Below are positions 8,205-38,078 of a stretch of 56,719 nucleotides of DNA, piece by piece. Position 1 is the stretch's first letter; each line of letters opens with the position of its first letter. The position numbers and the translations under genes are program-made. Source of the DNA: a virus; the IMG/VR virus record IMGVR_UViG_3300024243_000022, positions 1 to 56,719 of that record; one strand, given 5' to 3'. The notes under the pieces were generated by a model that searched no databases, was not told the origin of the DNA, and saw only the letters and a list, made by a program, of their open reading frames with translations.

Positions 8205-8474
8205 TTACCTCAGTACCATCAAAACTAGATTTGGTGTACCAGCAGACGCTTTAGCGTAAAATATAGTCTCACCTTTAGCTTGTGCTATATCTATATTAAA
8301 AGTTTGATTTGCTAAAGTTAAGCCATTTACTGTACCTGCTGTAGTATCAGATATATAAAATGCTGTTCCGTCGTCTACCCAAAAACTAATTGACCCGCAG
8401 CTTTGTGAAGCACCTAGCGATATAGCAGTGTAGGTACTTGTGTTTAGCGCTGTTACGACCAGAGGTTGAATCAT
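8205..8474 (-). CDS. Small beta-rich virion-type protein (89 aa)
   Basis: The sequence is Thr/Ser/Ala/Gly rich with alternating hydrophobics (TYTAISLGASQSCGSISFWVD) and no charged helices, typical of small phage structural or decoration proteins. It overlaps the start codon region of its neighbour (8471-8474), so it is co-transcribed with the giant virion protein. Role unknown. Confidence 0.65.
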   Translation of the reverse strand: MIQPLVVTALNTSTYTAISLGASQSCGSISFWVDDGTAFYISDTTAGTVNGLTLANQTFNIDIAQAKGETIFYAKASAGTPNLVLMVLR

Positions 8475-11400
8475 AATGTACTCCTTTGTTTTTCGTACTT
8501 GTTTGGTTTAAAAGTTTGCTTCAAATTTCTATTTAGCCATTTGCCAGTTATATAAGGTATCAAGAGCTTGGGCTTAGAAGTATACACTGCATTGTTGTAT
8601 GCACGTATCTTGTCTGCTAAGTCCATTAATATTTCTGGGTCTTGCTTATATAGTGGCAAAGTGTAAAATCTGTTGTAGCGTCGTAGTATGTCAGACCGGT
8701 CTGCAGTGTACTCTCTACGTTCTTGCGTCTCTGACCATTGACGGTCACGGATAGCCGAGAGTCTTGACGGACTGAATGAGAAGAGTCTGAGTATAACTTC
8801 ATACGGTGTGCTCTTCAGTGGTGTCGTACCGTGATACACAGGTGCATATGAACCAGTAGTAAGTCCTTCAGTAAACTCTCGTTTACCCTTGATGATATTA
8901 CCCAGTGCTCTAGGTGCTAAGTCCTCAAGTCCTTTCTCAGTTTCACCAAATGTGAAGTGCTCGTACGCTTTGGCAAAGTCTGACCATATGGCAAGTGGTG
9001 CACCACCAATCTCTATGACCTTCTTAGGAAATGGACTATTCATCTGGAGTGATCCAGTCATGTCTATTCCAGTTGTTGCACCAATTAAACCTGTACGAGC
9101 TATAGTATCTGATCCAGTTAAGTCTTCAATAAATTGGTAGAACCTTTCTTCTGGGTCTTCGTGTCCTGGCCACATAGCTTTGATAAGTGTAGTTAACATA
9201 GTAGCTGGTACTCCAGCCAATAGAGCTGGCGCCATCAGCATATACAGTGGCGCAATAATCTGTTTCTTGTTAAGTCCAAGGTCAAGCATGTTCAGTATGT
9301 AGTTGTGCTGAAACTTCATAAATGTAAAGGGCAAGTCAAGTAGTCGTATCTTCTGGATAACCCAAGGCTTGGCTGCTTTACCATATGTACCATGAGCTTG
9401 ACTTGATATTTCTTTGGCATGCTGCAGCAGTTCTTTATGCGCTTTCTCAATCAGCTTGGGGTCTTTAGAAGAGTTCAAGGTAGTGTTAATTCTCTTATAC
9501 ATCTCCTTATCAGACTGTCTTAGAGCTTTATAAGCAGCAAATATAGTTGTAGCACGATTCACCTTCTCAGTTGCTCCAAACATGACCATAGCGTGTTTTA
9601 GAATCTCATTAAAGACTCTAGAACCTATACCTTGTATTACACGAGCAGCCTCATAGTTGAAATTTGCTTCATCCCAGCCTTGACTTGTTATGTAGTCAAA
9701 TATCGCCTTATCTTCAGCTGATAACGTGCCTGAACCAACCAGACTATGTATACCTAGTTTCTTAGATAAGCCAGCTCTGTATTTTGTATACTGAGTAACA
9801 CTGTTTGCTACATGCTTTCCAGACTGTGCAAGATTTAAGCCAGTGTAACCAGTAATTGTAGCAGGTACAGCAAGTACCATATTTGTCAAGTTGACTGCTG
9901 CTGAACTTACACGACCACCTAAGTACATGACGACTGCTAAAGCTTTGAAGTAACCAACAGCTCTGTCAAACCCTGTATCAGGCTTTAAGAAGAACTGCAT
10001 GTATAAACGTGTTGCTTTATATAATCCTTTCTGGGTAGTAGGATCAATTGCTTTTTTCTTTACTTCAGTCAAGTAGTCCGTGTACGTGCCTTTCTTGTTA
10101 GTCTTCTGCCAGTCTTTAAATGACGTTTCACGACCTGTAAAAGCTAGGAGCATGTTACGTGTTGTTGTACGACGTGCTTCACCAGCAGCAAGTCGCTGTG
10201 CGTAACTTGTAAAAGCTTTATTCATGTCAGTCTCGAAGCCAGCGTAGTATCTTTTAGATCGCTGTTTACGTGATGTCAGTCTACCTTTTATCTTATACAC
10301 GTCTGCAATGTTCTGCGCCATTTGATTGTGTATAGACTGCAGTACTTTAGTATCAGCGTCTTTCTTAACATTTTCTTCTGCGTTCTTAAGTAACGAGTCC
10401 ATAGATGTTATGAGCCCAGGAACATCAAAGATCACATCAGTAGGTGTAGGAGTTACTTTTATACTTACGTCATAACCGAGTGCTTTAAGACGTCTTGCTT
10501 CCACACCAACTGGCATTCTTGTATTAATCAACTGACGTGTCTTATTTACCCAAGGAGAAGACAATACGTTCTGTGGCAGATACCCTGAGTAAGTCTTTGT
10601 CACTAACTTACCGTTTGAGTGCTCCGCTTTTAGAACATAGGCTTTACTCTGTCGTTCTCTAGGAAAGTAAGTACCTCGTAAGTCGCCTATCCTTGTTATT
10701 AACTGGCTAATGGCGAGCTGCCGTGTTTTGCCTTTGTCATCTGTATATTGTGCTGTAGGAGCTTTAAGTCCATTCTCTTTGGCACTTGCAACTTGGCGTC
10801 TTAGCTCTTCTGTTAGTAGTGTAAAGCCTCGGTCAGTCAACAAACGTGCTTCTTTCACCATGTCCAGAGATGCTTGATTGAACTTGCGTTTCTTGAGCAT
10901 CTGCTGCTCGAATGATATCATCTTGCGTGTGGCTTCTTCTTCAGTCTTAGCTCTTCCAACAACTTTGTTAGATGGGTTCATCACTAGCCATGTAGTCTTC
11001 ACCACTTTAGCGTTCTCAGTCTTTGTCACTGTGCTCTTAGTCTTTACTGAATATCCTCTACCTGTTGCATCTGTCTGCAGTAAGTAGTCATTAGCAATCT
11101 TGTAAGCTTTCTTGTAGCCACTAGTCTTCTTAAGATTCTTAATCAAGTTAGTCCAGTTACCGAGCACGAACTTCTCAATAGTATATTTAAGGTTATCTTC
11201 TCGTAATGCATGACTCATAACCTTCTTGGCTTGTGCACCACGTCTCAAGTAATACTCAGGAGAGTTAAACAGTAAGCCCATGATACCGATGTTCTGCTCA
11301 TGTGCTTTCCTTGTGAAGCCGTCACTTTCATCAAGCTTGTCAGATTCGTCAATCACGTTGTTGAATAGCTTAGCAATCTTAGCACGTAAAGGCACTTTAG

Positions 11401-14400
11401 AGGTTTCTTGATCTTTCATCACGTCTCTAAAGAGCTTCTCTGCCTCTGCCTTATTGTCACCCAATATCTCGCCATCTAGTTTAGCTTGTTCAGCTTTAGT
11501 ACGCACCTTAGCTGCGAGTGGTACTTTATCAGCAGATACGGTGTCGATAAGCTCTTGATTAAACTCAAACGAATTAAATTCTTTACCTGCTTTTGCGTAG
11601 TCTTTTATCTTGGTTGTAGTTAACTTACCACCGCCATATGGTTTAAATAACTTAGTAATAGTTTGTGGAAGATACTCTGTGTACTTCTTTACTATACCAT
11701 CAACTATTTGAATACCTTCAGTTGAGTCATATATCCATTTACCATCAGCATCTTGTCTAAAATTACTAGGCCAACCTTCTATAGCTGCTACATGATAAGG
11801 AGTCTTTGCCCAGATAAGTTTTGTGTGTCCTAGTGCTACGGCTTCCATAACCGCTCGTTTAAGAGCTAACTGAGTAGAATTGTCTTTAAATGGAAGATCG
11901 GGCTGTGCTCTAAGACTTTTTTTAGCTAAGAATGCTGGTTCTATAAGTTTTTCCATAACTTTTGAATCACGAATTATACTTTCTACGTCTTGTACAGAGA
12001 TAGATTTACGTACGTCTCTAGACAATCCACGTATTATATTAATCGCTAAATCTTCTGCGTCTACGTAAATAGCGGGACTATATGGACCAAAAGGACCAAA
12101 GAAACGTCCTTCCACGTGTATTTTAAAGTTTCTTTTTACGTCTTTATCATCTAAGTTTTTCTTCGTTATAGGAATAGTATCGTGCATCTTATTGACTATA
12201 TAGTTTACATAATGTTTAACTTTGGCATTTCCAGGTTCAGTTAACTGCCTTAGTTTAAGCGTATTTTTATCATATGTTTTTTTATCAGTATACCCGTACT
12301 TCTTTGCGTCTTGATGAGTATCAGACTGAATCTCGTGTATATATAATCCGTCACCTATAGAAGATACACGTAAATGTACTACTTCATTTTCTAACCTAAA
12401 GTGTTTACCTTTTTTACTAAGTTCAGTGTCTTTTATAGCTGGAATTTGTATAATTATCTCTTGGTAGTCTTTTAAACCTGTGGCTGTTGGTAAAGTAACA
12501 TAGTCAGCTTCAACAGGCGCATTTCTATAAGCATCGCTAAATAAGGCGTCTTGTACCTCAGTTAAGTAACCTTGATCTTGTACAGCGTCTCGAATAATTC
12601 GCCAGTCTTCTACTAAGTCTTCGTCAGCAAGTAAAAAGTCTTTGCTTTGTTTACTCATTAAGTCAGAGCTAATTGGAGCTAAACTATCTCTAAGAGAATT
12701 ACTGTCTAAAGATGTGTCGTTTAAAACATTAATTAAAAGATGATCCCGTACTTCAGGATATACACCTAAATTGTCTAACTTATCACGAATTATGTCTCTG
12801 AATACTATATACTTATCATCCACAGCTACAATTAGTGTAGCAAAAGTATAAGACTCGCCTTTATTAAAATCACCATTTATATCTGGATACTCAGTTTCAT
12901 TAATAGGCTTTGTTAAAAGTTCATTAACTCTATTAACAGCAGGTCCCGAAAACCCACTAGCTCGTTCAGCTATATAGTCTTCTGGATTTATACCTTCTTC
13001 ATGTAACTGATCAAATAGTGTTATATCGCGACCACCTAGTACAGTCTCATCCATTCTTGCTTTTAGGCCGTACTTAGCTAAGTGGTCCATAACTTGCTGC
13101 TTAGTAACTTTGCCTTTCTGTTTCTGCATCCACTCACGTAAATTAGAAAAGAAGAACTCTTCTTTTACATGAATCGGCATAGACTTGTTTGTCCAAGACT
13201 TAAATGTGTTAAGCCAGTTTTCAGGAGTCGCTTTACCTGGACCCTTAGCTTGTATGAAGTCGTCTTCAAGTCGTGAAGAAAACTTAGGTGCCAACTTAGA
13301 AGCTTTAGGTTTCGTTGGCGGTTTTAAAGGCAGTATATCAGCGTTCTTTCTGTCTTTGGCTTTCTCTAGTACGGTAATATTTCCAGGTGTTGTCATACCA
13401 CCCTGAGGCTTAGCTTTATAACCACCAAAAGCGTCATCATATACTTTTGCAAAAGCTATCATGCCAGAAGTTAAAAAATCATATCGTTGTTCTAACTCAG
13501 CTTTTAACTTCGTGTACTCCCTAAATTTAAAAATACCTATTTCAGCTGTTAAAGCTTGCTTAGCATTCCATATTTTCTTTCTAGCTTGTACGTCAGTATC
13601 TTCAGCTTTTATACCTGTTGCAGCGTCCCAAATTTTAAAAACTTCAGGTCGCATAGCATAATAAACTCGATCAGCTACTTCTACAGGAGTAATTGCAATT
13701 CTGTCGTTTACCGACGTTTTATCGTAAGCCGACTTTGCAGGGAATTTTATTATTTTAGAAGCTAAGGGAATATCATTACGTTTTTTAACTACAGTTTGAT
13801 TTAGTATTTTTTGATCCCATATAACGTAGTTAAAAGTTTTTCTTTCGTATCTTTTATACCGCGTCCAACCATCAATGAAACGTAAACCTGGAATACCAAA
13901 TTTTTTAAACTCTAATGACGCAGCTTTATCTGATCCAAGCGCTTTAGATACGGCTCTGTATATATAACTACCTAGAGTATTATTATTTATACGCCGCATG
14001 TGAAGCTTGTTTTTGTATGGCACACTGTTTTTTCTTTGTACACTGTTAATAAGCTTGTGCATCTTTGCTCGTGCCATTGGTTTTTGTTGACCTAATGTTC
14101 TATCCCAATGAAAAAGTTGACTTATAGCAGGCGAAGGCATTTCTAACTTATACAAAGACGCGTCTTTATTAGTTGAGCGCGTAAAGTTTATCTTAGCTTG
14201 TTTAAGTTTCCAAGCATTTATAAGATGCCCTGCTTGATCATATAAAGGCAGTAGCCGTGCATTTTCAAAAGATGCTTGATCACGACGTAAGGCTTCAAGT
14301 TCAATATCTAAATACCACAAAGCATCTTCATATATTTCTTGTGTGTCGTGTATATGTGTAGTACCATTAAATGCAAATCCTACATATGCAAGTGCTATAT

Positions 14401-17400
14401 CTTCAGCAGTATTAGCGTCAACAAACTGGCCGAATAAAATTTTAGTATTATATGCAGTAGGATTGAACTTAATTTTCTTGCCATTTACTGTTACACCTGT
14501 TATATTATACGCTGGAAACTGAAAATACTTATAGTAGTCTAATCCAGTAGCCTTCATTTGGGCCCCATAAAAACCCCAACCATAAGTTTGTACGCCTGAT
14601 CCAGTACTCATTTTATCTAAACGCGGTCTACCGTGTTTAAATCTTGATTCTTTTTGCCAAGTAACTGGACTGCCATGATATACTCTAGACGCAAGTGGAG
14701 CTGAACTTGTTAGTGTAGTATGTCCAAGCTTATTTCTGAGAATGTTACCGACGATCAAACCCATCTCATATCCAGATAAGTTCTCGGTCATGCCTAACTT
14801 ACGTTTCAACCAAGCTTTAAGCTTGAAAACCATCTCTTTATAGAACGGGAGCTTTGTGTTAGCTTCATTCTGGATGTAGTGCATCAGAGTTTCTTCTTCC
14901 CATACTTCTGGTTTACTAGGATACTGTTCCTTTACCCAGTTATGTATATCGAGCAGGACTTTATCTGTCTTGATTCTCTTGGCTGCTGACGCTATGAAGC
15001 TGTTATACATTGCTTTGAATTGCTTGTCTGAAGCCAAAAGTAGATGACCGCCTTCATGGAGTATAACACCCTTGGCTCCACCAGCTCTCACAAGATTCTC
15101 AAGCACTAAATATAGCTTGCCTTTCCAGTAAACACCAGCAACTCTGTTCTTTTCACCTTTGGAGTACTTAGGATCGTCAAAGTCAAGTTCCTGAGTTGAG
15201 TCATATTCTTCGAGGTTAAACTCTTTCTTCACTCCATCTGGTAAGTCTTCCTGGTAGTCTACTGCCTCTACTTTTGACAGGGGGTCATCGATACCCATGT
15301 CTTGCATATCCTGCACAACTTGTGACTCTACGCCTCGAATTTTTATTTGTTCAGCTTTAGTTCTTTTAATGACTTTTTTCTTAGGTTTGGAGCCTTTCTT
15401 AGCTGGTTTCGAGCTCTTTTTAGCTTTCTTAGTAGTAGCGCTAGTCTTCTTCTTTTTAGTCGATTTTTGGCTATCTATAGGCTCCGACTTTTCTACTTTT
15501 TTCTTAGCTTCGCTCTGTGATTCAAGCTCGCGTATTTTATCTTCTATTTGTTTAGCAAATTCAGGGTCTTTCTTCTTATACTCAGTCAGCATACCTTTTA
15601 ATTCAGCTATGCGCTTGTTAATAGCTTTAACAGATGGAGTACCACCAAAGAACCTATCAATAGCTGCACTCATTTCTTTTTTATCGGTGATAGGAGAAGA
15701 TTCTTCTTTTTTAGCTTCGCTCTGTGATTTCTTAAGGTTCATTGTAGCATGCAGACGCTTTACTTTTAAATCATGAATTATCTTTTTTGTATCAGTTATA
15801 ACGTCTTTATGTGCGCCACCTTCTTTGGCATGCTTTAATACATACTGCTGCCCGGCTATCTTGGCGTTAATTTTATCTAACTCAGATTGTTCTTTTGATA
15901 TTACTTTTGTGTCTTTATTCTTTGGCTTTGGAAGCTTGGTACTCTTCTTTTTTGTCTTTGGCTTTTCTACTTTCGTCTTCTCTTTAGACTTAACCTGGCC
16001 TTTCTTATCTTTTGTAATTGTCTTCTCTTTGAACTTGGGTTTCCAGTCAATTGGTACCCAGCGAACTCTGCCGTCATCAAACTCAGCTCGTTTTATAAAA
16101 CCTTTTTTCTCAAGGACTTTAAATGTCTGTGCAGTAACACCAGTTTTAGGACGCTCTTCTTTTTCCATGGCGTCAATGGCTTTTTGATTAAGCCACTTGA
16201 AATTACCAACAATTTTCTTACCATCCATAATTACAGGATAAGGCTTATAATCGTTTTCATCCAGGAGAGATTCCTGTATTTGACCTAAAGCTAGACGTTG
16301 AAATTTACTCAGAGGCTTTTGCTCGCTTGCTTCAGCAGCGTTAAACGGTGTAAACTCTTTCTCTGTTTCATTCGATTGTACATATGGGCCAACTTTAGTC
16401 TTAGTATTTTGTTTTTTAAGCTGAGCTGAATATACTGTACTTGCAAACTCCGCTTGCATTACTTGTACTTCTTTTTTGTCTTTTGGTAGTCCTGTGTCAT
16501 TCGTTTTTTTATTTACATACGCAGTAAAGCTGGAGTGCTTCTTAGCAAAAGTTAACTTTTGAGCAAGAGACATCTTACCCCATTTTATAGTATCTGGCAC
16601 AGGTAGTATAGAGTCTTTGTCTTTTACTTCTTCTGTCTCTTTCTTTAAGCCCTTAGTCTCGACCTTAATACTCTTCATATTAGCTTCGCCACGTAACTCA
16701 TTCTTCTGAGCTGCTGAGTATCCTTTCCAGTCTTCTTCTGTTACGTTGGCAAGCTTGATTACTTCAGCATCAGATAGCTTCTTCGGCTTAGGTGTTTTCT
16801 TGGGTGCAGCTTCTGCTTCACCAGTGTCTTCACGTATAACAAAACCACCCTTAACTTGCTGAACTTTAAACTTTTTCTCTGGATCAAGCTTCCGTATCTT
16901 AAGAGCACCTTCTGCTTTTTTCTTTGTTGTATATGGCTTAGTACTACGTGCAGGAAGTAAGTCACTTTCAAGCATGTCACTTAAGTCTTCTTCAGTGATT
17001 ACTTCTTCTGCATCTGTGGTTTCTTCAGTTTCTTCTTCCTCTGTTTCTTCTATTGTTTCTTCTTCAGCATTCTCAGCAAACTGAGTAGTAGTTGGTTCTT
17101 GCTGTACTTCGTCTTGAATACTGTCAGGTACAGATAAGTCTTTTTTAATACCTGACTTAGTTGCTGCTACAAATGCACCAGCACCGCCTATAGCACCACC
17201 TGATACACCAGATTCTACTATACGTTTTATATTCTCAGGTGTCAGAAACTTCTCATCTGTATTAGCAACAATATTAAGTATTGAACTTACTTCCTGACCA
17301 GCTTCCTGTAACATTTCTGATGGTATATTTGTAAGCAGTTTTTTAGCAGCACGTTTTAAGTATGACCCAGGCATGCCTTTAGCAATAGCACCTACAAAGT

Positions 17401-18298
17401 CGTCAACTAAACCGATATTGCCACCTGCGAGTTCCATAAGACCAGAAAGAACGCCAAAACCTAGTGAAGACATAGGAGCGTCTACGCCGTGCTCAGTCAA
17501 AAGCTCTCCGTAATTAAGACCTGCTTCAAGCTGAGATACTGTACCAACCATACCAGCTTTAGTAAGCTTCGCAACAGTTTTACGACCGCTAGCCTTCATA
17601 TAGCCTTTAAGTAAGGCTTTTTCGAGTTGTTTCTCAGTAGCCTCTCGTGCAGTTTCTTTTATGACCTTATTTTTGATTTGGTGTGCAACTGCTGCCTTAG
17701 CTTTTTCTCTGACCATTTTTCTCAAGCCATGTTTTACTACAGAGTATCCGACACCAGCAGATAGAGTTGTACCGATAATTGTTTCAGCTATAATAGGAAC
17801 TTGGGATGCAATTAAACCTTGAAACCAATCTACTCCTGTTCCTATACCTTTTACTTCATCAAGACTCAGAGTAGGATACTGACTTGCTTCGTCTTCGTAC
17901 TGCGCGTACTTATCCATACTAAAATCTTGAACAGCACTACCAGTGTCTTTAACAATGTCTATACCAAGTTTTTCTCCTGCGTACTTTGCTAAAGAACCAA
18001 GCACACCACCAAAGCCAGCCACACCTTGTTTAGTCGTAGCTATACCTTGTTTTAGACCGCGCTCTACATCTCCTAAGCGCAGCTTATTTGCTTCAGCTTG
18101 ACGCTGTCTTAAAAGCTGGTGCTGCCAGTCTTCTTCATTAATACCAGACATAGTACGCGCGATTTGACCAAAGGGAACGCCTTGCTCAACAAGTGGTCGA
18201 ATATCTACACCTTGATTTACTGCTAGACCTATAGCGATCTCTTGATCTGACATACCTTCTTGTAAGGCCGTCATATAATTTTCAGGAGTAAAGGGCAT
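8471..18298 (-). CDS. Giant polyvalent internal virion/ejection protein (3275 aa)
   Basis: This single unbroken reading frame covers 17% of the genome. Order of parts (approximate residues): helical N-terminus; hydrophobic segments near 160-190, 275-300 and 365-385; a Glu-rich linker near 400-450; a long Lys-rich region to about 1000; a zincin-like metallopeptidase with HEGGH (HExxH) near 1080; an ADP-ribosyltransferase-like domain opening YHGSP near 1204 with GWGFYGA; a domain with IHEIQSD near 1988 and PDLPFKDN followed by LALKRAV, a motif set seen in phage and plasmid polyvalent proteins; then a helical C-terminal region resembling LPD38-type domains with hydrophobic spans near 2783-2816 and 3016-3043. 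It follows three internal-protein genes in the late operon. Inference: packaged and delivered into the host on infection to form a conduit and act on host targets. No RNA polymerase motifs were seen. Confidence 0.85.
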   Translation of the reverse strand: MPFTPENYMTALQEGMSDQEIAIGLAVNQGVDIRPLVEQGVPFGQIARTMSGINEEDWQHQLLRQRQAEANKLRLGDVERGLKQGIATTKQGVAGFGGVLGSLAKYAGEKLGIDIVKDTGSAVQDFSMDKYAQYEDEASQYPTLSLDEVKGIGTGVDWFQGLIASQVPIIAETIIGTTLSAGVGYSVVKHGLRKMVREKAKAAVAHQIKNKVIKETAREATEKQLEKALLKGYMKASGRKTVAKLTKAGMVGTVSQLEAGLNYGELLTEHGVDAPMSSLGFGVLSGLMELAGGNIGLVDDFVGAIAKGMPGSYLKRAAKKLLTNIPSEMLQEAGQEVSSILNIVANTDEKFLTPENIKRIVESGVSGGAIGGAGAFVAATKSGIKKDLSVPDSIQDEVQQEPTTTQFAENAEEETIEETEEEETEETTDAEEVITEEDLSDMLESDLLPARSTKPYTTKKKAEGALKIRKLDPEKKFKVQQVKGGFVIREDTGEAEAAPKKTPKPKKLSDAEVIKLANVTEEDWKGYSAAQKNELRGEANMKSIKVETKGLKKETEEVKDKDSILPVPDTIKWGKMSLAQKLTFAKKHSSFTAYVNKKTNDTGLPKDKKEVQVMQAEFASTVYSAQLKKQNTKTKVGPYVQSNETEKEFTPFNAAEASEQKPLSKFQRLALGQIQESLLDENDYKPYPVIMDGKKIVGNFKWLNQKAIDAMEKEERPKTGVTAQTFKVLEKKGFIKRAEFDDGRVRWVPIDWKPKFKEKTITKDKKGQVKSKEKTKVEKPKTKKKSTKLPKPKNKDTKVISKEQSELDKINAKIAGQQYVLKHAKEGGAHKDVITDTKKIIHDLKVKRLHATMNLKKSQSEAKKEESSPITDKKEMSAAIDRFFGGTPSVKAINKRIAELKGMLTEYKKKDPEFAKQIEDKIRELESQSEAKKKVEKSEPIDSQKSTKKKKTSATTKKAKKSSKPAKKGSKPKKKVIKRTKAEQIKIRGVESQVVQDMQDMGIDDPLSKVEAVDYQEDLPDGVKKEFNLEEYDSTQELDFDDPKYSKGEKNRVAGVYWKGKLYLVLENLVRAGGAKGVILHEGGHLLLASDKQFKAMYNSFIASAAKRIKTDKVLLDIHNWVKEQYPSKPEVWEEETLMHYIQNEANTKLPFYKEMVFKLKAWLKRKLGMTENLSGYEMGLIVGNILRNKLGHTTLTSSAPLASRVYHGSPVTWQKESRFKHGRPRLDKMSTGSGVQTYGWGFYGAQMKATGLDYYKYFQFPAYNITGVTVNGKKIKFNPTAYNTKILFGQFVDANTAEDIALAYVGFAFNGTTHIHDTQEIYEDALWYLDIELEALRRDQASFENARLLPLYDQAGHLINAWKLKQAKINFTRSTNKDASLYKLEMPSPAISQLFHWDRTLGQQKPMARAKMHKLINSVQRKNSVPYKNKLHMRRINNNTLGSYIYRAVSKALGSDKAASLEFKKFGIPGLRFIDGWTRYKRYERKTFNYVIWDQKILNQTVVKKRNDIPLASKIIKFPAKSAYDKTSVNDRIAITPVEVADRVYYAMRPEVFKIWDAATGIKAEDTDVQARKKIWNAKQALTAEIGIFKFREYTKLKAELEQRYDFLTSGMIAFAKVYDDAFGGYKAKPQGGMTTPGNITVLEKAKDRKNADILPLKPPTKPKASKLAPKFSSRLEDDFIQAKGPGKATPENWLNTFKSWTNKSMPIHVKEEFFFSNLREWMQKQKGKVTKQQVMDHLAKYGLKARMDETVLGGRDITLFDQLHEEGINPEDYIAERASGFSGPAVNRVNELLTKPINETEYPDINGDFNKGESYTFATLIVAVDDKYIVFRDIIRDKLDNLGVYPEVRDHLLINVLNDTSLDSNSLRDSLAPISSDLMSKQSKDFLLADEDLVEDWRIIRDAVQDQGYLTEVQDALFSDAYRNAPVEADYVTLPTATGLKDYQEIIIQIPAIKDTELSKKGKHFRLENEVVHLRVSSIGDGLYIHEIQSDTHQDAKKYGYTDKKTYDKNTLKLRQLTEPGNAKVKHYVNYIVNKMHDTIPITKKNLDDKDVKRNFKIHVEGRFFGPFGPYSPAIYVDAEDLAINIIRGLSRDVRKSISVQDVESIIRDSKVMEKLIEPAFLAKKSLRAQPDLPFKDNSTQLALKRAVMEAVALGHTKLIWAKTPYHVAAIEGWPSNFRQDADGKWIYDSTEGIQIVDGIVKKYTEYLPQTITKLFKPYGGGKLTTTKIKDYAKAGKEFNSFEFNQELIDTVSADKVPLAAKVRTKAEQAKLDGEILGDNKAEAEKLFRDVMKDQETSKVPLRAKIAKLFNNVIDESDKLDESDGFTRKAHEQNIGIMGLLFNSPEYYLRRGAQAKKVMSHALREDNLKYTIEKFVLGNWTNLIKNLKKTSGYKKAYKIANDYLLQTDATGRGYSVKTKSTVTKTENAKVVKTTWLVMNPSNKVVGRAKTEEEATRKMISFEQQMLKKRKFNQASLDMVKEARLLTDRGFTLLTEELRRQVASAKENGLKAPTAQYTDDKGKTRQLAISQLITRIGDLRGTYFPRERQSKAYVLKAEHSNGKLVTKTYSGYLPQNVLSSPWVNKTRQLINTRMPVGVEARRLKALGYDVSIKVTPTPTDVIFDVPGLITSMDSLLKNAEENVKKDADTKVLQSIHNQMAQNIADVYKIKGRLTSRKQRSKRYYAGFETDMNKAFTSYAQRLAAGEARRTTTRNMLLAFTGRETSFKDWQKTNKKGTYTDYLTEVKKKAIDPTTQKGLYKATRLYMQFFLKPDTGFDRAVGYFKALAVVMYLGGRVSSAAVNLTNMVLAVPATITGYTGLNLAQSGKHVANSVTQYTKYRAGLSKKLGIHSLVGSGTLSAEDKAIFDYITSQGWDEANFNYEAARVIQGIGSRVFNEILKHAMVMFGATEKVNRATTIFAAYKALRQSDKEMYKRINTTLNSSKDPKLIEKAHKELLQHAKEISSQAHGTYGKAAKPWVIQKIRLLDLPFTFMKFQHNYILNMLDLGLNKKQIIAPLYMLMAPALLAGVPATMLTTLIKAMWPGHEDPEERFYQFIEDLTGSDTIARTGLIGATTGIDMTGSLQMNSPFPKKVIEIGGAPLAIWSDFAKAYEHFTFGETEKGLEDLAPRALGNIIKGKREFTEGLTTGSYAPVYHGTTPLKSTPYEVILRLFSFSPSRLSAIRDRQWSETQERREYTADRSDILRRYNRFYTLPLYKQDPEILMDLADKIRAYNNAVYTSKPKLLIPYITGKWLNRNLKQTFKPNKYEKQRSTL

Positions 18299-18308: not shown

Positions 18309-19913
18309 TTATGCTTGTACTGCTTGTGAACGTTCCTGAGCTATTTGAGCGATAGCCAGTTTAATAATCTGGTCTTTCGTGTTCAAAGGCTCTCCTGACT
18401 CTTCTTTTGCAATAAGTTTTCTAAGCCAATTTTGTATTATAGCCATTCCGCCTTTTTTTAATTCTTCTGCTGTGCTTTGCACGGCAGCTTGTATTTTAGG
18501 CGACAACTGTTGCTGACCTGGCTGACTAGCAGTATTACCTTTTAAGATATTATCAAGCGCTCCGCCAGGTATAGTTTCAGAACTTATAGGGTTGTTTTGC
18601 TGTGTAGCTGGTCCAGTAGGTATTCCAGAAGAATGGAATTTATCAAGAACTGATTTAGCTTTAATTGAAGCTGGGACTGGGTCAGTTAAGTCTTGTATTG
18701 TTATGCCATCTACTGTCATTGTAGGCGCTGGAGCATTAGTAGGTATCGTGCCAGCGTCTGTAGGTACTGTCCCGCCTGCAAATGCAGGTATACCTGATGT
18801 GCTAGTAGGTGCTTGAGCATTAACTGTAGGTCTTATTGAAGATGGTATCGCACCTCCTGCACTAGCTGGTATACTTGATGTATCAATAGGTGTTTGTTTT
18901 ACGGGTGTATTTACTACATGACTTGGTAAAGCTTCTTTAGGAGCTTCTGACTGTGCTTGTATAAGTGCTAATTTCTTTGCAGAGTCTTTAGGAGTTAAAG
19001 TTGCAGGCGTATCACTTGGATTGTCACCTACTATTTTTGCCACATTTGGATTAGCCATTTTTAAAGCCATTAGTCGTACTGCAACTGGATCAGCTCCGAC
19101 TTTAAACCAATGTCCTTCATTTCCGTTTACTTTTTCTTGTTTACTTTTACCAAATGTTTTAAGACCCATAGATTTTAACATGGTTCTAAATTCTTTTATA
19201 TCACTTATTTTTGCGTCTTTAGGACTTAACGGAATATGTATTCTGTAAGAATTTGGACTACCAGCCATACCTGGTACAGTTTCTGTGGGCCAAATTACAC
19301 CAGTTGCTTTAGATACATAACCGTTAATCTCATTTATTCGGTTATTAATAACTGAAGTAGCGTACTCTAGTTGATCTTTATTAGACGCATTTAAAGGAGG
19401 CGGTGTTTCGCGTTCTTTTATTTGGGATAGTATATTTAACTTATCTAAATGTGCTTTTGATGCTGCTGTTTTATTAGCTGACTGAGTCTGCACATCTGTT
19501 AAGTATGTGGCTGGACTATTTGTTTTAAGTTTATCTGTATAGTTAGCTATGGCATCTACGTTACCTGTTCGTCTAGCCTCAGTAAGATTTGCCAAAGTCT
19601 TAGTTGTTTTATTTGCATTCACACGTGACTGACCCTCAAACATATCTCTACCGACTGCCATAGCTGTCTTAACTGCTGCCATTACAACAGGTGCAGGATA
19701 CCCTTTACTTTGTAGCGCTTGCAGTACCTTACTCATAACATCTGAGTTAGTTTTTTCTTCATCTGACAAGCCACCTAGCATCTGCAACACATCTTGAGCT
19801 GCAGCTGTTACTTGATCACGTAGTGTACTAGCTTCTCTTCTATCAGCAAAATTTGCCATTGTAGTAGCAAAACTCGATGCGTTAGTGGATGATTGTGGAC
19901 TAAAAAATGCCAT
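18309..19913 (-). CDS. Internal virion protein, Ser/Thr/Pro/Ala-rich (534 aa)
   Basis: It has a helical N-terminal third and a central region with SYRIHIPLSPKDAKISDI and KSMGLKTFG that looks folded. A low-complexity segment with repeated IP(A/T)xAGG units (about residues 340-410) follows, then a helical C-terminus. It overlaps the 19900 gene by 14 bp and precedes the giant protein. Composition and position match podovirus internal core or ejection proteins; no named family is recognised. Confidence 0.7.
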   Translation of the reverse strand: MAFFSPQSSTNASSFATTMANFADRREASTLRDQVTAAAQDVLQMLGGLSDEEKTNSDVMSKVLQALQSKGYPAPVVMAAVKTAMAVGRDMFEGQSRVNANKTTKTLANLTEARRTGNVDAIANYTDKLKTNSPATYLTDVQTQSANKTAASKAHLDKLNILSQIKERETPPPLNASNKDQLEYATSVINNRINEINGYVSKATGVIWPTETVPGMAGSPNSYRIHIPLSPKDAKISDIKEFRTMLKSMGLKTFGKSKQEKVNGNEGHWFKVGADPVAVRLMALKMANPNVAKIVGDNPSDTPATLTPKDSAKKLALIQAQSEAPKEALPSHVVNTPVKQTPIDTSSIPASAGGAIPSSIRPTVNAQAPTSTSGIPAFAGGTVPTDAGTIPTNAPAPTMTVDGITIQDLTDPVPASIKAKSVLDKFHSSGIPTGPATQQNNPISSETIPGGALDNILKGNTASQPGQQQLSPKIQAAVQSTAEELKKGGMAIIQNWLRKLIAKEESGEPLNTKDQIIKLAIAQIAQERSQAVQA

Positions 19914-21366
19914 ATTTTGTCTCCTTGTCTAATCCTGTAATAGCGCCCCATAGGTCAACTAAGCCAGTGCTTGCTTTACCCAGAGATAATATATTGTCAA
20001 ATAATCCTGGTTTGTTTGCATCTATTTTTACATTCGCAATGTCTACGTCCTTGTCGATGCCGTACTTCTTGAGTGCAAGTTCTATATTGCCCAAGTTAAG
20101 TGTTTCATCCCGCACACCAGTTGCTCCTAGCAGAGCTAAGTACTGTAGTATGCCTTTAGCAGGTGAACGGTCACTCACAGTTGCGTACTTCTTATCTTCT
20201 GCATTGATTGAGTTGGTCATCTGATTGGCAGCCAGAAGAGCTTGAAGTGCCCCTTCGTCTTTCTTGAACTTAGGAATGTATGAGTAGTCTTTGCCACCTA
20301 TGTTTACGGTAGTAGGAGTATACGCACCTGTGCCAGTAGCTAAGTTCTTTTCAAGGCCTTGTAGAACTGCGTTGTTCTTATTCGTAGCTGTGTCAATTGC
20401 AGTGCCGTAACCCTCAGCTTCTGTCTTCTTGAAGTTCGCATCATTCTTAATTGCTTCTTCTGCTTCAGCAGTAAACTTATCTATATAAGTATCCCACATA
20501 GACATTGGATCACTTGGGTCACTTGTTGTGCCTGTTGTATCAGCTGTCACGAGATTTCCGTCCTTATCCAAAGATAGCTTACCTAAGGTGTCTAACCCTC
20601 CTGGTGTATTTGTGTTCAGTCCGTTATTTTTTGATACTCTTGAATTGTTAAGGTAGTCTTTAAGCCATTTGGGAGTACCAACCTCTCTTGCTTTATCCCA
20701 GGCCCCTGAACCTGTGTTCCAGTTTTGAACAAGGGTATCTACTTGTTGGTTGTAATCTTGGAGGTCTTTACCACCAGCAGGAGGAGGCCCCATCACTACT
20801 TGAGCCATGATCTTGTCAGCCTCTTTCTGTGGCAGCGTTCCATCTAAGGCACTCTGAATTTTTGCGTCATTCAAAACAGACTTCATGTATGTTAATTTAT
20901 CTGGTCGACTGTCTTGATCTAACGCACTCCACGCAGCACTTACCTCAGCAAGAATCTCATTGCCAGTCTTTTCACCATAGTTAGCAAGTATAGCGTCATT
21001 TGCTGCTTTAATAGTCTTCATGTTATTAAAACTATCAATTAGTAATGAAAGCTTACTTAAGCCCCACTTAGCAGATTTCTTAAACATCTTTTTACCAAGA
21101 CTAGATAGAAGTGCTAGCTGAGCTTCAATAGCTTGGTTCTTCTCAAAGTCATTGATATATTTAGCAGCTGCATTTGGGTCACCTTCAAACGCTGGAACAC
21201 TTCCCATAATACTAGCCATCTGAGACGCTCCAAAGCCAACAGGAGGACCACTACCAGAGCCACCTCCAACGTTGCCACCATCTGACGCACCGCCTTGAGG
21301 ACCGTCAACTCCAGGGCCATAAGAGTTAATCAGCCAATGGAGTTTCTTTGAGTTATTAAAAATCAT
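19900..21366 (-). CDS. Internal virion protein with Gly-rich N-terminus (488 aa)
   Basis: Residues about 17-50 are a flexible Gly/Ser/Pro stretch (GPQGGASDGGNVGGGSGSG), followed by long helices (FEKNQAIEAQLALLSSLGKKMFKKSAKWGL) and an Ala/Asp/Thr-rich body. The C-terminus mentions a repeated DKD/KYGIDKDVD theme but no catalytic motif. It sits between two other presumed internal proteins of the late operon. Confidence 0.7.
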   Translation of the reverse strand: MIFNNSKKLHWLINSYGPGVDGPQGGASDGGNVGGGSGSGPPVGFGASQMASIMGSVPAFEGDPNAAAKYINDFEKNQAIEAQLALLSSLGKKMFKKSAKWGLSKLSLLIDSFNNMKTIKAANDAILANYGEKTGNEILAEVSAAWSALDQDSRPDKLTYMKSVLNDAKIQSALDGTLPQKEADKIMAQVVMGPPPAGGKDLQDYNQQVDTLVQNWNTGSGAWDKAREVGTPKWLKDYLNNSRVSKNNGLNTNTPGGLDTLGKLSLDKDGNLVTADTTGTTSDPSDPMSMWDTYIDKFTAEAEEAIKNDANFKKTEAEGYGTAIDTATNKNNAVLQGLEKNLATGTGAYTPTTVNIGGKDYSYIPKFKKDEGALQALLAANQMTNSINAEDKKYATVSDRSPAKGILQYLALLGATGVRDETLNLGNIELALKKYGIDKDVDIANVKIDANKPGLFDNILSLGKASTGLVDLWGAITGLDKETKYGIF

Positions 21367-21378: not shown

Positions 21379-22461
21379 TTAATTTCCGTAAATATCTTTT
21401 GATAAAGCTGTTAGCATTAATTCTAAAGGTAGTAAAAATTGTGTAGCAGTCTGTGCGTTTGTATTGAGTGCCTGTGACATAAGTTCTGGAATCTTCATCT
21501 TCAGTTCTGCGCCTTTCATGACCGCATCACTTGACTTGCTTGCTACGTCAGTTGCTATCTTACTCAAAGCTGAACTCATAGTGTCTGATGTTATACTAGA
21601 CTTGAGCATATTCTTGGTTGCCATTTCATCAAGCACACTCTGACTGACACCCTTGATCATGTTACGACCTTCTGATCGCGCACCTTGTTGTGCTGCAGCG
21701 ATGTACTTATCTATATCGTCATTTAGACCAGTTATTTTAGTTTGTAAAGCTGTGTTAAGAGCTGAGTTATCAAACGTATTACTATCGATATAGCCTTGTA
21801 TTTGTTCTATAATTCCTGCGAATGGTGACTGTTGTCCGGTGTTGGGGTCTACTCCTGGATCGGGCCCTGGTGAAGGCTTCCCTGGGTCAAGGTGTATTTT
21901 CATGTTAGCCTTTAAAGTATCATATGGTATACCTGTAAGGTTCGCCATGTCGATATAAGATGCACCTGTTGTGTTCATATACGCAGAAATAAACTCATTT
22001 TTATCGGGAGCCGCATCATAAAGTTTTGTGAACCCTGCCTGGTCATTGGTGAAAAATTCAGTGCCTTGCTGAGTTGTTGTGTTGCCACCTGACACTCGGT
22101 TCACTGCATTAATCAAGTCCTGTTTAGAGGCTCCGTATGTGCCTAAGTCTTGGTAAACTTGAGTAGGAGTGGCAGTTTTAATATAGTCTGATACATCGTT
22201 TTCAGTGCCTGACCATGTGCCTATTGTTACAGGTTTTGATGGTTCAGGTGCTTTTGGCAACACACCATAATCTATAAAGGAATCCGCTTGAGATGCTGTA
22301 TAATCAGAACCAGGGTTAAGGTCATTTATAATATTCGACAATGTAGCACCTGATACACCGTATTTAATTGCATCACTTCTAATTTGGCCCGGTGTATTTC
22401 CAGCGAAATAAGACTTTAAATCGTCTGCTGTATAGTCCGTCCCACCTATATTATATGCCAT
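21379..22461 (-). CDS. Virion protein with repeated N-terminal modules (360 aa)
   Basis: The first 200 residues contain related units of about 40-60 residues: YTADDLKSYFAGNTPGQIRS, then GTENDVSDYIKTATPTQVYQ, then FISAYMNTTGASYIDMANLT, each with a Y/F-x-hydrophobic helix and a Gly-Ala-Ser turn. A Pro/Gly/Asp-rich linker (about 200-220) leads into a long helical, Ala/Ser-rich C-terminal domain. AGGAGAAAGGGTAAA precedes the ATG. It is probably the first internal core protein; no family name. Confidence 0.7.
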   Translation of the reverse strand: MAYNIGGTDYTADDLKSYFAGNTPGQIRSDAIKYGVSGATLSNIINDLNPGSDYTASQADSFIDYGVLPKAPEPSKPVTIGTWSGTENDVSDYIKTATPTQVYQDLGTYGASKQDLINAVNRVSGGNTTTQQGTEFFTNDQAGFTKLYDAAPDKNEFISAYMNTTGASYIDMANLTGIPYDTLKANMKIHLDPGKPSPGPDPGVDPNTGQQSPFAGIIEQIQGYIDSNTFDNSALNTALQTKITGLNDDIDKYIAAAQQGARSEGRNMIKGVSQSVLDEMATKNMLKSSITSDTMSSALSKIATDVASKSSDAVMKGAELKMKIPELMSQALNTNAQTATQFLLPLELMLTALSKDIYGN

Positions 22462-31429: not shown

Positions 31430-32500
31430 TTAACTATGCGCAGCAGCATAAGAGCTAATGGTCATAACCCCAAAGTCTTTGCTGTTGAAACGGGTTTTTT
31501 GCATACCAAAACAACTGCCGGCTGCAAGACCTTTTTTGTTACCATAATCCTGGCTTTTTTCAACCCAGGTAATATAGTTGTCTTTACCAACTTTCTTTTG
31601 GTCCATTCTGTCATAAGCATTACCCAACGCAAAAACACCAGCTTGTGCACCCAGGAAGAGATTCCTTCGTACGTTAGTTGTAGGTGTGTAAATACGATTT
31701 GATTCATAGATGATGCATTTATTGTAAACACCAAGAGCTCCGTTAAAGATCGGATTCTTGAGTCCACGAATATTTGCATACTGCTGAATTTCATGCCATT
31801 TAACACTTGAAGAACCTGTACCAAGGGACAATTTCATGTCAGTCACTGAGTAAGGATGAAGCACAACTACAAAGTAGTCGTCGCCATCGATACGAACAGG
31901 ACGCATGGGAACGTCATTGGTAGTCGCTTTTTCTTTTGCGTAATCAATATCTTCAAGCAGGAATTTATCATTTGAATCCAGGGCGCCAGTGCTTGTTTCA
32001 GCAGTTGCGTTACCAGAATAAATGATATGATCTGAGTCAGGAGTTCGGCCAGTGTTGCTACCGTGGGTCAACGAGGTGTCACCGCAAAGATACCTGAACA
32101 TATACTCTTCAAGCTTGTTGCTCCACCATCTTGACAAGGCCCACTGTCCGTCCTTTCTAAGATTATGAATTGTTCTCTGCTGGGACATTTTTCCAAAGAT
32201 ATGTGCATGTCTCAGCTGATTGATTTTAATACTGTCCTGATAAAAAGTCAACTGTTCTTCGTTGCCTTCCAGGGTGTTGTCTCCAGTTACGCCAGCGCCT
32301 TCCATCTCAACTAAGAGATCGTAGACTATATTATCACCAGCGTTCTTCTCGAGGTCTTTTGCCATATAAAGGATCGCATCTTCATTAGTTCCGAGAAACT
32401 TGCGGAAGAACAAGGTACCCTTAAGGGCCTCGTACCATGTCTTTTTAGACCAAAGTTTCACCGTTTGACTTGACGATGTGCCGAACTCTGTCTCTGCCAT
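31430..32500 (-). CDS. Major capsid protein (N4-gp56 / DUF4043 family)
   Basis: The 356-aa sequence has the family's opening (VKLWSKKTWYEALKGTLFF), LEKNAGDNIVYDL, then GDNTLEGNEEQLTFYQDSI with KINQLRHA and a GKMSQQR motif, all characteristic of N4 gp56-type HK97-fold capsid proteins. The middle has PVRIDGDDYFVVVLHPYS and the end is conserved (KKGLAAGSCFGMQKTRF). Standard AGGAG site before ATG. It forms the icosahedral shell with the scaffold encoded two genes upstream. Confidence 0.9.
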   Translation of the reverse strand: MAETEFGTSSSQTVKLWSKKTWYEALKGTLFFRKFLGTNEDAILYMAKDLEKNAGDNIVYDLLVEMEGAGVTGDNTLEGNEEQLTFYQDSIKINQLRHAHIFGKMSQQRTIHNLRKDGQWALSRWWSNKLEEYMFRYLCGDTSLTHGSNTGRTPDSDHIIYSGNATAETSTGALDSNDKFLLEDIDYAKEKATTNDVPMRPVRIDGDDYFVVVLHPYSVTDMKLSLGTGSSSVKWHEIQQYANIRGLKNPIFNGALGVYNKCIIYESNRIYTPTTNVRRNLFLGAQAGVFALGNAYDRMDQKKVGKDNYITWVEKSQDYGNKKGLAAGSCFGMQKTRFNSKDFGVMTISSYAAAHS

Positions 32501-34288: not shown

Positions 34289-36376
34289 TTATGTAGGTGT
34301 CACATTTGTTGGTGTATTATTCTGTGGTGCTGCAGCCTGTTTCTCTGACGCACTCACCACAAATTTAAGTAGCTCAAGCATAGAACTTTTCTCGTCTGCG
34401 TCCATATCAGCCATCTTAGCAGCTAAGTCACGCTTAGAGTCAGTGTCTTTCTGAGCTATTTGCTCCCTTGATATTGCACCGTCTTGCATCTTGCCTTTCG
34501 CCATTATTTCTAACTTCTTGCTCTCGTTTTGTACCTGTGCTGTTTTATGCTTATCGTCACTTTCCAGCTTTTTGGCTTTCATCTGCATCTCAATACCTTG
34601 CAGTTTCTGTTTGCCTTCTTCTTGTTGCTTAATGTAGTTTTTCCAGTTTGCTTTTTCAATTGGAGATAAATCAAGTTTGTCAATCACAGTGAATGGATCA
34701 ACTGGGAAGCCTTTTTCCATCATTTCCATAAAGGTTGCCAGCTCAGCCATCATCTTAGTTAAGCCACCAGGGGCTTCTTCCATTCGAATATTGTAATTTA
34801 GGTCACGAATTTTTCTAATCGGCGCAATCATTCCACGCTGTTGATCTACTATATAACCTTGTTGAAAAGTGTATTTCTCAGTTTCACCGAGTATCTTTCT
34901 AATCTGTGTCTCAGGCATAAAGCGTACGATTATCTCAATCTTCCGCTTGTATACTTCTTTAAGTGCAGCTCGATGATTAGCAAATAACTTAGCCAAGATA
35001 GTAAGTCCTTGCTGTTGTCTCAAACGAAGATTTATTCCTGGTTCACGACGCTGCTGTGCAATACCCATCAAGTCAGGATTCACACCACTGATCATCTTCA
35101 TTGCTTCCCGGTTCATCTCTTCAAGCTTCATTGGTGCATCAGGGAATTGTGGAACAGATTTTTCTTTAACCTTGTTCAAACCCCCCTTGGTCATAAACGT
35201 AATTGCATCAGGATCAGCCCATGAGTCTTGCGCTTGTGTGAGATCATGAAATGCATCAATCTCAGCCATGACGCCAACGCCTTGCTTACCCAGGAGTTTA
35301 AGTGTATGCATCCAACGTCTATTGCATTCTTTCTGTGGGTCAATCATACCCTTCACAAGCCCATAGGCCTTGTGCTGCCGGGTTGATCGATCGATATATG
35401 CTCTTGCACGACAGAGTGAGAAGTTCTTCTTATAGACAGGTGAATCACCTTCCCACAAAATCCGGTCATGTGTGTAGTGCAGCCAATGAATCTTAGTGTC
35501 ATATACTTGAGTCAGTTGACCAGATATTTTTTCTTTCTTCAGGAGGTTGTATTCTTTCTTTGTTAGCTCAGTAATTTCCTTCTTGTCACTTATAAAGTAG
35601 TATCGCAGATACGCAATTCTGTACTCTAAATGTGAGACCAAAACTCGCTTGTTTTGTGAGTCGTAGAACTCAAAAGAATCTGCTTGCACTACGTCTTGGT
35701 CTAGATAACCAAGAGAGTGATCTGAATGCTTACCTAGTCCTTCCAGGCCATCAGTAAAAATTTCTTCCATATCCTTAATGTGCTTAGGATACCTGATGTG
35801 AAAGTCTTCTGCTGTAATCCACTTCTCATAGATGATGTACCGTGCATCACTAAGGTTCGACTTCCTACACATTGGATCAACTAATACCTCATACCCTTCT
35901 AATGAGAATTCGTAGAACTGAAGTTCTTCAGGATTTGCCGGATCAGGTCCTACGTCGACTACTACATCACCAACACCTGTGATAAGTTCATTCTCAAATA
36001 GTGTCTTGTGCTCATCTGCTGCGTCAAGTTGACTTGTGTCAATGTACTTGACAATATCCTCAAGTACTTCACATAAGAAGTCATCACTCTTCTCAACTGG
36101 GTATGGATAAATACGTACTGGATTTTGCGACTCAATCCCAACGGCTAGTTCTACAGTAGGATGGATGTAGTTCCATACTAAAGCTTCACGACCCTGCTGC
36201 TCTAGCTTAAACTTCTCATCATCACTCCACTGGTCACCGGCTTTAAACTTCTGCGCAAGCTGAGCTGACTCAAGCCACTCTAGATTTGCAGTCCAAGCTT
36301 CGTCTCGCATCTCTTTCGCAACTGTCAGTCGATCTTCTTTTGAGAGCTCAGTAAATGATGTATACCAACCAGCCAT
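34289..36376 (-). CDS. Portal protein (695 aa)
   Basis: It has the layout of P22/N4-like portals: an N-terminal helical region (AKEMRDEAWTANLEWLESAQ), GREALVWNYIHPTVELAVG, a wing with GVGDVVVDVGPDP and YEVLVDPMCRKSNLSDARYI, a clip/stem segment and a long helical C-terminus rich in Lys/Gln/Met (TAQVQNESKKLEIMAKG). The length suits a dodecameric portal with a C-terminal barrel. It lies directly downstream of the terminase genes in the packaging module. Confidence 0.9.
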   Translation of the reverse strand: MAGWYTSFTELSKEDRLTVAKEMRDEAWTANLEWLESAQLAQKFKAGDQWSDDEKFKLEQQGREALVWNYIHPTVELAVGIESQNPVRIYPYPVEKSDDFLCEVLEDIVKYIDTSQLDAADEHKTLFENELITGVGDVVVDVGPDPANPEELQFYEFSLEGYEVLVDPMCRKSNLSDARYIIYEKWITAEDFHIRYPKHIKDMEEIFTDGLEGLGKHSDHSLGYLDQDVVQADSFEFYDSQNKRVLVSHLEYRIAYLRYYFISDKKEITELTKKEYNLLKKEKISGQLTQVYDTKIHWLHYTHDRILWEGDSPVYKKNFSLCRARAYIDRSTRQHKAYGLVKGMIDPQKECNRRWMHTLKLLGKQGVGVMAEIDAFHDLTQAQDSWADPDAITFMTKGGLNKVKEKSVPQFPDAPMKLEEMNREAMKMISGVNPDLMGIAQQRREPGINLRLRQQQGLTILAKLFANHRAALKEVYKRKIEIIVRFMPETQIRKILGETEKYTFQQGYIVDQQRGMIAPIRKIRDLNYNIRMEEAPGGLTKMMAELATFMEMMEKGFPVDPFTVIDKLDLSPIEKANWKNYIKQQEEGKQKLQGIEMQMKAKKLESDDKHKTAQVQNESKKLEIMAKGKMQDGAISREQIAQKDTDSKRDLAAKMADMDADEKSSMLELLKFVVSASEKQAAAPQNNTPTNVTPT

Positions 36377-36623: not shown

Positions 36624-38078
36624 TTACATTACCATTCTTCGTTGTTTATATTTCGCCATCAGTGCGTCTACTTCATTCAGGCGTTCCTTTGTATAGCCAG
36701 AAAGGCCCCTGATACGCATCATCACATACTGAAGAGCATCGTGGACATGACTGTACTTATTCTTGGCAGGCGTATCTGCAAATCTCTCTTCACCAACAAC
36801 CTGCAGTCTTCTAAACTTATAGCCTCCATTAAATCCCTTTCTCAAATGGTTGCAGTCAGGATGTAAGTTGAATGCAGGCTTGCCGTCCCTGAGTGCAGTA
36901 AGATAGAATCGTACTGCTTCAAGACGTGGATCTAGCACATTGGTATTTGCTTCTTCACACATGATACCTAAGTCGGCTAGTTCTTTAAAAACTGTTTGTT
37001 CGTCTGTTTGTGCACGTTGATTGCCGGCTGGGTCACCGATGAATGAGATATCTGTGTCGGGGTAGTGCTGCTGAATATGTGGCAGTAAGCAGGTCTCAGC
37101 AAACTGCTTAATACCCATGTCAAAGGAGACTACTTCAGACAGCACATTCACACCGCCACGTGTTGTTGGTTGTACAAATACTGCAGAGGGAGTTAAGCCA
37201 AAGTCAAGGCCGCACAGTAATTCCTGATCCTCAACATGCACGATATGTTCATTTAGATGAAGGGCTTCTGACCACTGTTCTTTGTAAATCGGCCTTCCAT
37301 CTTCAACACTCCCGAATTGATTTGCTAGGTTGACCTTTATCCAACTGTGTGTCTTACCTTCTTTTCCTCTAGTGTAGTATCCCTCAGGTAAGTTTTGTAT
37401 GTTCTCAGCCAAAGGATTGGATTCCCATTCTCTAGTTACGGGGTTCTCTATTAACCCACCAGGTTGTGTAAAAAAGGTCCAGTCCCTTGGCTTGGTAACT
37501 TCTTGCAGTTCGTAAAGCCAGTGATCATCATCCACTTGATTGGTGTCACCGATTATCCCGTACCATGACGGCCCGCCATCAATAGCTGACGGATATCTGC
37601 CGATACGAAAGTCGAGCATATCCAGGATAGCTTTCGGTAATTCTTTTATTTCGTTGAGCCAGGCCCCAGTCAACTGTGATCCCCTCACCTTCTTGACAGC
37701 TTGCGGTCTGTCAAGAGCTATGAAGACTAGGTCTGAGTCAACGATGGTCTTATCTGATAGTTTAAATTTTATATGGTGGTTGGGTGGTTGAATACCAGAC
37801 CCTTTAGAAAACTTCCCTAGATGCTCGAATAAGTCAAGCCAATCCTTGATCGTAGTAGAGAAGAGTTCTCCATATGTGTTCCTGACAGCGTACCATCTAC
37901 TTTTGCGTATGCCTTGCCGGTTTGGTCGCTGCTCAGTCATCTGTGTCAAGATGCGTTCACAAGAGCCATAAGTTTTGCCGCTACCTAATGGCCCTGTGAT
38001 AATACCAACACGCCCTCGATGATGAATGTAGTCACCGAGTACCTGCCCTTGCGCCTTGGTTTTCATCACAAACTTCAT
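36624..38078 (-). CDS. Terminase large subunit
   Basis: This packaging motor has an N-terminal ATPase and a C-terminal RNase H-like nuclease. Walker A is GPLGSGKT (29-36); the hydrophobic strand LVFIALDRP is followed by GAWLNEIKE with the catalytic Glu at 143. Nuclease acidic residues appear in CGLDFG (Asp292), SFIGDPAG (Asp349) and VHDALQY (Asp447). At 484 aa it matches short-tailed phage enzymes. Its start follows the small subunit stop by three bases. Confidence 0.95.
   Translation of the reverse strand: MKFVMKTKAQGQVLGDYIHHRGRVGIITGPLGSGKTYGSCERILTQMTEQRPNRQGIRKSRWYAVRNTYGELFSTTIKDWLDLFEHLGKFSKGSGIQPPNHHIKFKLSDKTIVDSDLVFIALDRPQAVKKVRGSQLTGAWLNEIKELPKAILDMLDFRIGRYPSAIDGGPSWYGIIGDTNQVDDDHWLYELQEVTKPRDWTFFTQPGGLIENPVTREWESNPLAENIQNLPEGYYTRGKEGKTHSWIKVNLANQFGSVEDGRPIYKEQWSEALHLNEHIVHVEDQELLCGLDFGLTPSAVFVQPTTRGGVNVLSEVVSFDMGIKQFAETCLLPHIQQHYPDTDISFIGDPAGNQRAQTDEQTVFKELADLGIMCEEANTNVLDPRLEAVRFYLTALRDGKPAFNLHPDCNHLRKGFNGGYKFRRLQVVGEERFADTPAKNKYSHVHDALQYVMMRIRGLSGYTKERLNEVDALMAKYKQRRMVM

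Follow-up and report, generated by a model that had tools for sequence, protein, structure and literature searches.

The 56,719-nucleotide virus record IMGVR_UViG_3300024243_000022 of IMG/VR, which was analysed in its entirety and is called the window here, carries on its minus strand a giant gene (8471..18298) whose 3275-residue product contains no cysteine at all. We consider that this product is probably a polyvalent internal ejection protein, encoded where a short-tailed phage has its gp16 and injected into the host as a multi-tool. Its cysteine-free composition, overlooked in the initial annotation of this DNA, is the strongest indication of ejection that the sequence provides.

The exclusion of cysteine extends to the three genes before the giant, and the resulting four-gene block has zero cysteine in 4657 residues. 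The other late genes of the window phage contain 33 cysteines in 4505 residues (7.3 per 1000), from which about 34 would be expected in the block (Poisson chance near 1e-15), whereas its Trp, His, Met, Phe and Tyr contents are near normal. The same absence is found in known ejected proteins, namely T7 gp15 and gp16, P22 gp7, gp20 and gp16, and N4 gp50, gp51 and gp52, while T7 gp14 has one cysteine, at position 2. Cysteines do occur in the majority of the portals, terminases, polymerases and tail proteins of T7, P22 and N4, though the major capsid protein of N4 and a few other proteins of these phages are also cysteine-free.

Relatives of the giant have a similar composition. Three giants of the PLxRFG family, those of Klebsiella phage ZX1 (3867 residues), Serratia phage Parlo (3764) and Ochrobactrum phage POI1126 (4841), have no cysteine, and the nine giants that share the C-terminus of the window protein (itself included) have three among their 34,656 residues, confined to a single protein. 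Among eight related records from which giants were taken, the directly upstream gene could be read for five completed relatives and was cysteine-free in all five. Open reading frames (ORFs) found through the ADP-ribosyltransferase (ART) domain described below contain 0.18 cysteines per 1000 residues against 8.64 in other ORFs at the same loci, and those with the HEIQSD domain 0.16 against a background of 4.14; this background includes mechanical ORFs, and the gene-based controls (the known phages and the window late genes) are cleaner. The lack of cysteine was previously noted for N4-like virion RNA polymerases and linked to their entry into the cell (PMC3715699, PMC3915230, PMC2784036). We found no general statement on cysteine-free ejected proteins in the literature, and the word cysteine is absent from a review of ejection proteins, which is weak evidence of novelty.

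The giant also lies where internal ejection proteins are expected, as the initial annotation had supposed. On one strand (minus), the genes for the terminase large subunit (36624..38078; phrog_2, E 7e-11), the portal protein (34289..36376; phrog_156, E 1e-71), the major head protein (31430..32500; phrog_334, E 4e-77) and tail-type proteins are followed by the cysteine-free genes of 360 (21379..22461), 488 (19900..21366) and 534 (18309..19913) residues, and the giant comes last, so that it is encoded among virion genes as polyvalent proteins are. The order gp14-gp15-gp16, small, medium and large, closing the virion genes, is that of the ejection proteins of short-tailed phages (PMC8954989), and the four sizes past the tail genes (360, 488, 534 and 3275 residues) increase in the same way; judged by gene order and cysteine count, the 360-residue gene occupies a gp14-like position and the 534-residue gene, directly upstream of the giant, a gp15-like one. 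The three smaller genes have no recognisable relative in PHROG, and none of the four has a match there to gp14, gp15 or gp16. Ahead of the block, a 120-residue ORF (22682-23044) has by eye the look of a small peptidase-type endolysin and has no PHROG match.

The reading frame at 8471-18298 exists as originally described; its strand, about which that description was silent, is the minus strand, the plus frame being riddled with stops. It runs for 3275 uninterrupted codons from an ATG at 18298, preceded immediately by an AGAGGA ribosome site, to a stop at 8471, and indeed takes about 17% (17.3%) of the 56,719-base record. A promoter and terminator scan gave nothing beyond chance level. All the motifs were recovered within a few residues of their annotated places, HEGGH at 1081-1085, YHGSP at 1207, GWGFYGA at 1240 and IHEIQSD at 1987-1993, and, as judged from the homologues, none of them is a chance motif. 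The view that the protein is polyvalent is borne out by the homologue families of the zincin, ART-like and HEIQSD regions, which place at least two unrelated functional domains in one chain.

The zincin-like metallopeptidase domain (residues ~1045-1190; 14729..15166, minus strand) was defined using an iterated profile from residues 1035-1204, which collected 31 homologous stretches, including those of window relatives, the Methanosarcina virus MetMV, ZX1, Parlo and POI1126. Within the HEGGH motif (15044..15058), H1081, E1082 and H1085 are present in 100% of these stretches and the downstream E1136 in 90%; such an HExxH with a downstream Glu is, at the level of sequence, typical of a metallopeptidase whose third ligand is acidic. 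The zincin part of the structure model is poor (pLDDT of about 40-55).

The ART-like region (residues ~1204-1500; 13799..14689, minus strand) aligns with several dozen phage homologues and owes its assignment to family membership: 24 of the 37 homologues in the alignment match Pfam ART-PolyVal (best E 5e-24), seven match DUF3990 and two match PARP, while the giant's own sequence matches none of these three models. H1208 and Y1244 of the NAD-binding motifs are retained, as are Y1255 and N1490. At the position of the catalytic Glu of PARP, assigned by eye, the giant has this Asn (N1490), which is invariant across the subfamily, and the GTGEG loop reads STGSG; compared with the homologues, the region also contains a long insert. 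The region thus appears to be a member of the ART family of uncertain activity. The same subfamily occurs in the giants of two viruses of archaeal hosts, MetMV, which also has the zincin, and vir555; this cargo therefore crosses the divide between bacterial and archaeal hosts.

The HEIQSD domain (residues ~1690-2275; 11474..13231, minus strand), with its IHEIQSD motif at 12320..12340, has no Pfam model in any of its members and no match among the Pfam LPD models, and its recognition as a conserved domain was upheld by 28 homologues in which H1966, R1977, E1989, Q1991, S1992, D1993, P2136 and A2153 are invariant. Six of these residues are charged or polar, and E1947, N1971, Q1996 and K2147 are nearly invariant; the giant has both sets in full. 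The motif itself served to find some of the homologues, so that the invariant residues outside it are the stronger evidence. Judged by its invariant polar residues, the domain is a candidate enzyme.

The structure prediction proposed as a check in the initial annotation did not establish the fold assignments; neither the ART model (core pLDDT >90) nor the HEIQSD model (mean pLDDT 65) had a PDB match below E = 0.001. With Foldseek, the HEIQSD model gave significant matches only to predicted structures of phage proteins (best E 3.9e-11). Lower in the list were GNAT acetyltransferases (probability 0.80 and 0.63) with non-significant E-values, and the PDB list contained recurring weak GNAT-fold entries of about 50 columns, none significant; hhalign of the domain against three phage GNATs was negative, the GNAT alignment being thin. 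A GNAT identity is thus a lead only, suggested by these models. When the ART, HEIQSD and C-terminal alignments were run as profiles against solved structures, no meaningful match was returned.

HEIQSD proteins also occur alone, as cysteine-free products of ~630-700 residues (~640) on four contigs (L048:5314-7266, L079:8885-10804, L127:9876-11765 and L043:3156-5267), whose genes directly adjoin a gene of ~774 residues; this neighbour is a portal by PHROG in L048 and the others look alike. Two HEIQSD-type copies (at residues ~1577 and ~2452), flanking a zincin, are found in a 3948-residue giant (L143:968-12814), which is the sole cysteine-bearing member, with three, of the nine giants sharing the C-terminal module.

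This C-terminal module (residues 2321-3275; 8474..11338, minus strand) had been annotated as an LPD38-like end; no LPD38 match was obtained with Pfam for the whole protein or its slices, and the match is instead to the PLxRFG family 'tail-700' of NCBIfam (NF032893, E = 1.6e-13), two slices of the protein scoring 50 and 32 bits against a curated cut-off of 100 bits. In place of the eponymous motif the giant reads PRERQS (aligned segment YFPRERQS, within GTYFPRERQ at 2542). From these matches, its last ~950 residues are homologous to the PLxRFG C-terminus, but divergent. Of the hydrophobic spans annotated near both ends, the C-terminal one (residues 3012-3044; 9167..9265) is strong and lies ~230-270 residues before the C-terminus in 9/9 giants with the module, while the N-terminal one (161-181) is weak.

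Giants of 2445-4730 residues share this module and differ in their middles; they come from viral contigs, mostly of 48-59 kb, plus one genome bin. The cargo upstream of the module comprises, in some of them, InPase, a DarB-type methyltransferase-helicase, LPD3, LPD23 or ART-PolyVal; helicase domains were found in four, two of which also match a methyltransferase. With a shared C-terminus and differing middles, the former is constant and the latter exchangeable, so that carrier and cargo are separable. The genome-bin relative (L303:5588-12925; 2445 residues, one cysteine) lies on a 339-kb contig of a Desulfurivibrionaceae bin, next to a gene resembling translation factor IF-2 by eye; it probably belongs to a prophage and hints at the host group.

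The N-terminal region (residues 1-400; 17099..18298) is variable within the family and shows weak profile similarity to the phage virion protein phrog_6958 (E 5e-4). It is followed by the Lys/Glu-rich low-complexity linker (residues ~401-1030; 15209..17098), confirmed at about residues 400-1030, in which residues ~661-750 (16049-16318), ending TAQTFKVLEKKGFIKRAEFDDGRVRWVPI, have by eye a winged-helix look. Among 59 non-redundant giants, a short motif, often aromatic and acidic, is duplicated near the N-terminus in 27 at p<=0.05 and in 17 at p<=0.01, against 1/59 internal windows and 0/80 other N-termini. Many cysteine-free giants have such a duplication; it was noted in the first ~90 residues of those of L144-L148, L150, L154, L155, L162, L168, L172, L173, L180, L183, L187, L214, L224, L229 and vir555 (L010). 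The copies are similar within one protein and differ between phages, for example DVFDDILS/DVFDEILS, GLFDDTQ twice and LSEEEFMG/LSDEEFLG; in the window giant no significant duplication was found (p = 0.60). The first 30 residues of P1 DarB are enough to target it to the capsid (PMC9024508), so the duplicated motif may reasonably be guessed to be a packaging tag.

By its architecture, the window giant belongs with the phage polyvalent proteins, and it probably works as they do; it is divergently related to the PLxRFG proteins and carries cargo of its own. Like the giants of ZX1, Parlo and POI1126, it has the homologous C-terminal module, a related zincin, no cysteine (3764-4841 residues in these phages) and the position of last large gene past the tail genes; it differs from them by its ~20% identity, by PRERQS in place of PLxRFG, by a score under the NF032893 cut-off and by the lack of a detectable methyltransferase-helicase. 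In the phage polyvalent proteins described by Iyer et al. 2017 (PMC5512222), too, a single polypeptide encoded among virion genes combines a zincin, an ART and uncharacterised domains; the window giant differs in that its HEIQSD domain is unmatched among the Pfam LPD models. The T7 gp14-gp15-gp16 and P22 gp7-gp20-gp16 blocks share with the window block the small-to-large order, the (near) absence of cysteine and the podovirus context, although the giant exceeds the known gp16 proteins (609-1337 residues, PMC8954989) 2-5-fold in size. The methanogen viruses MetMV and vir555 share with it a related zincin-ART segment and an ART segment, respectively, and vir555 has a podovirus-like order of internal virion proteins; by contrast, both of their giants have three cysteines and no match to the C-terminal module.

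On the preferred reading, the giant would be packaged in the internal core of the capsid with its three cysteine-free neighbours and be ejected through the tail, at least partly unfolded, ahead of or with the DNA, and the exclusion of cysteine would mean that no disulfides are formed while the periplasm is crossed. The C-terminal ~950 residues with their hydrophobic span would act as the common carrier, a membrane insertion module. Zincin domains have been proposed to cut polyvalent proteins apart (PMC5512222), and here the zincin probably cuts the giant to free units after entry; the ART-like domain would then modify a host protein, the ART and HEIQSD units acting on host targets in the first minutes. 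Of this picture, the gene, its domain families and conserved residues, the mosaic architecture, the gene order and the lack of cysteine are observed; that the protein is packaged, ejected and cleaved, and what its enzyme activities and targets are, is inferred.

Several observations weigh against this reading. The giant, scanned whole and in slices with Pfam, NCBIfam and PHROG, passes no curated cut-off, and neither T7 nor P22 ejection proteins were matched by sequence; Foldseek found no ART or zincin fold (nothing in the PDB for the ART model), and the STGSG loop suggests that the ART domain may be weakened. P1 DarB, which is located in the head of the P1 virion and is believed to enter the host (PMC9024508), has nine cysteines in 2255 residues; absence of cysteine is therefore not required of every injected protein, and a universal cysteine rule was rejected. 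The degraded ART loop, interrupted by its long insert, would also suit a core protein with a solely structural role, comparable to the stacked gp16 of T7, that aids DNA exit and membrane crossing with its enzyme-like domains as relics and no effector activity, and so would the gp16 position and the conserved hydrophobic C-terminal span. We regard this as unlikely, because neither the zincin ligands nor any of the residues invariant in HEIQSD have been lost, and because relatives still carry methyltransferase-helicase, InPase and ART domains in the equivalent position.

A DarB-type antirestriction protein, shielding the incoming DNA from host restriction, is suggested by the relatedness of the C-terminus to the DarB-like proteins of Parlo and POI1126 and by the four helicase-bearing relatives, two of them with methyltransferase matches. 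This improbable explanation is already weakened, as neither a methylase nor a helicase could be recognised in the giant, and DarB identity was rejected when N6-methyltransferase and SF2 helicase were not detected in Pfam scans of the whole protein and its slices. There is similarly little to be said for a late protein retained by the cell that makes it, or located on the tail exterior, for example as a lysis or adsorption factor, its lack of cysteine reflecting a repetitive or secreted character: the gene does close the late block and has weak PHROG matches labelled 'endolysin', but these map to the zincin/ART and HEIQSD regions and not to a lysozyme fold, and the cysteine-free block coincides with the gp14-15-16 gene order. 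Finally, the virion RNA polymerase gp50 of N4, of the injected type, resembles the giant in size (about 3300-3500 residues), lack of cysteine and an HExxH motif, and the N-terminus of its family (phrog_2206) has a weak match at colinear positions; this match is limited to residues 172-387 (E = 0.064) and leaves the polymerase part of the family unmatched. No RNA polymerase domain was detected in the giant, this identity was rejected, and we find an N4-like polymerase very hard to credit.

As for the record itself, no DNA similarity of the window phage to cultured phages was found. A second record (131 kb, L001/G001) carries the identical giant gene (100%), and its terminase-to-giant offsets imply a circle of 56,801 bases; it consists of one full circle of the window phage followed by ~74 kb of other sequence, and may be a chimera, a strain concatemer or an integration.

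As far as our tools show, the extent of cysteine exclusion in the giants, the HEIQSD family with its lone portal-adjacent form and the duplicated N-terminal motif are new. More speculatively, and with the balance of our judgement against it, we suggest both that HEIQSD is an enzyme not yet described, perhaps a GNAT-like acyltransferase, which is carried inside cysteine-free giants and, in other phages, as a lone cysteine-free protein of ~640 residues by the portal gene, and that strict cysteine exclusion is a clear enough signature of the short-tailed phage ejectome for injected effectors to be picked out directly by sequence. Phages inject proteins besides DNA, and finding such proteins has required virion proteomics. 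A complete lack of cysteine across thousands of residues is seen here both in known ejected proteins and in multi-domain giants that combine varied cargo with one carrier end, and, if this holds, cysteine exclusion would allow the injected effectors of uncultured phages to be listed. HEIQSD, for its part, is a widespread and highly conserved candidate enzyme with no Pfam name, and would be of a class acting within minutes of infection.

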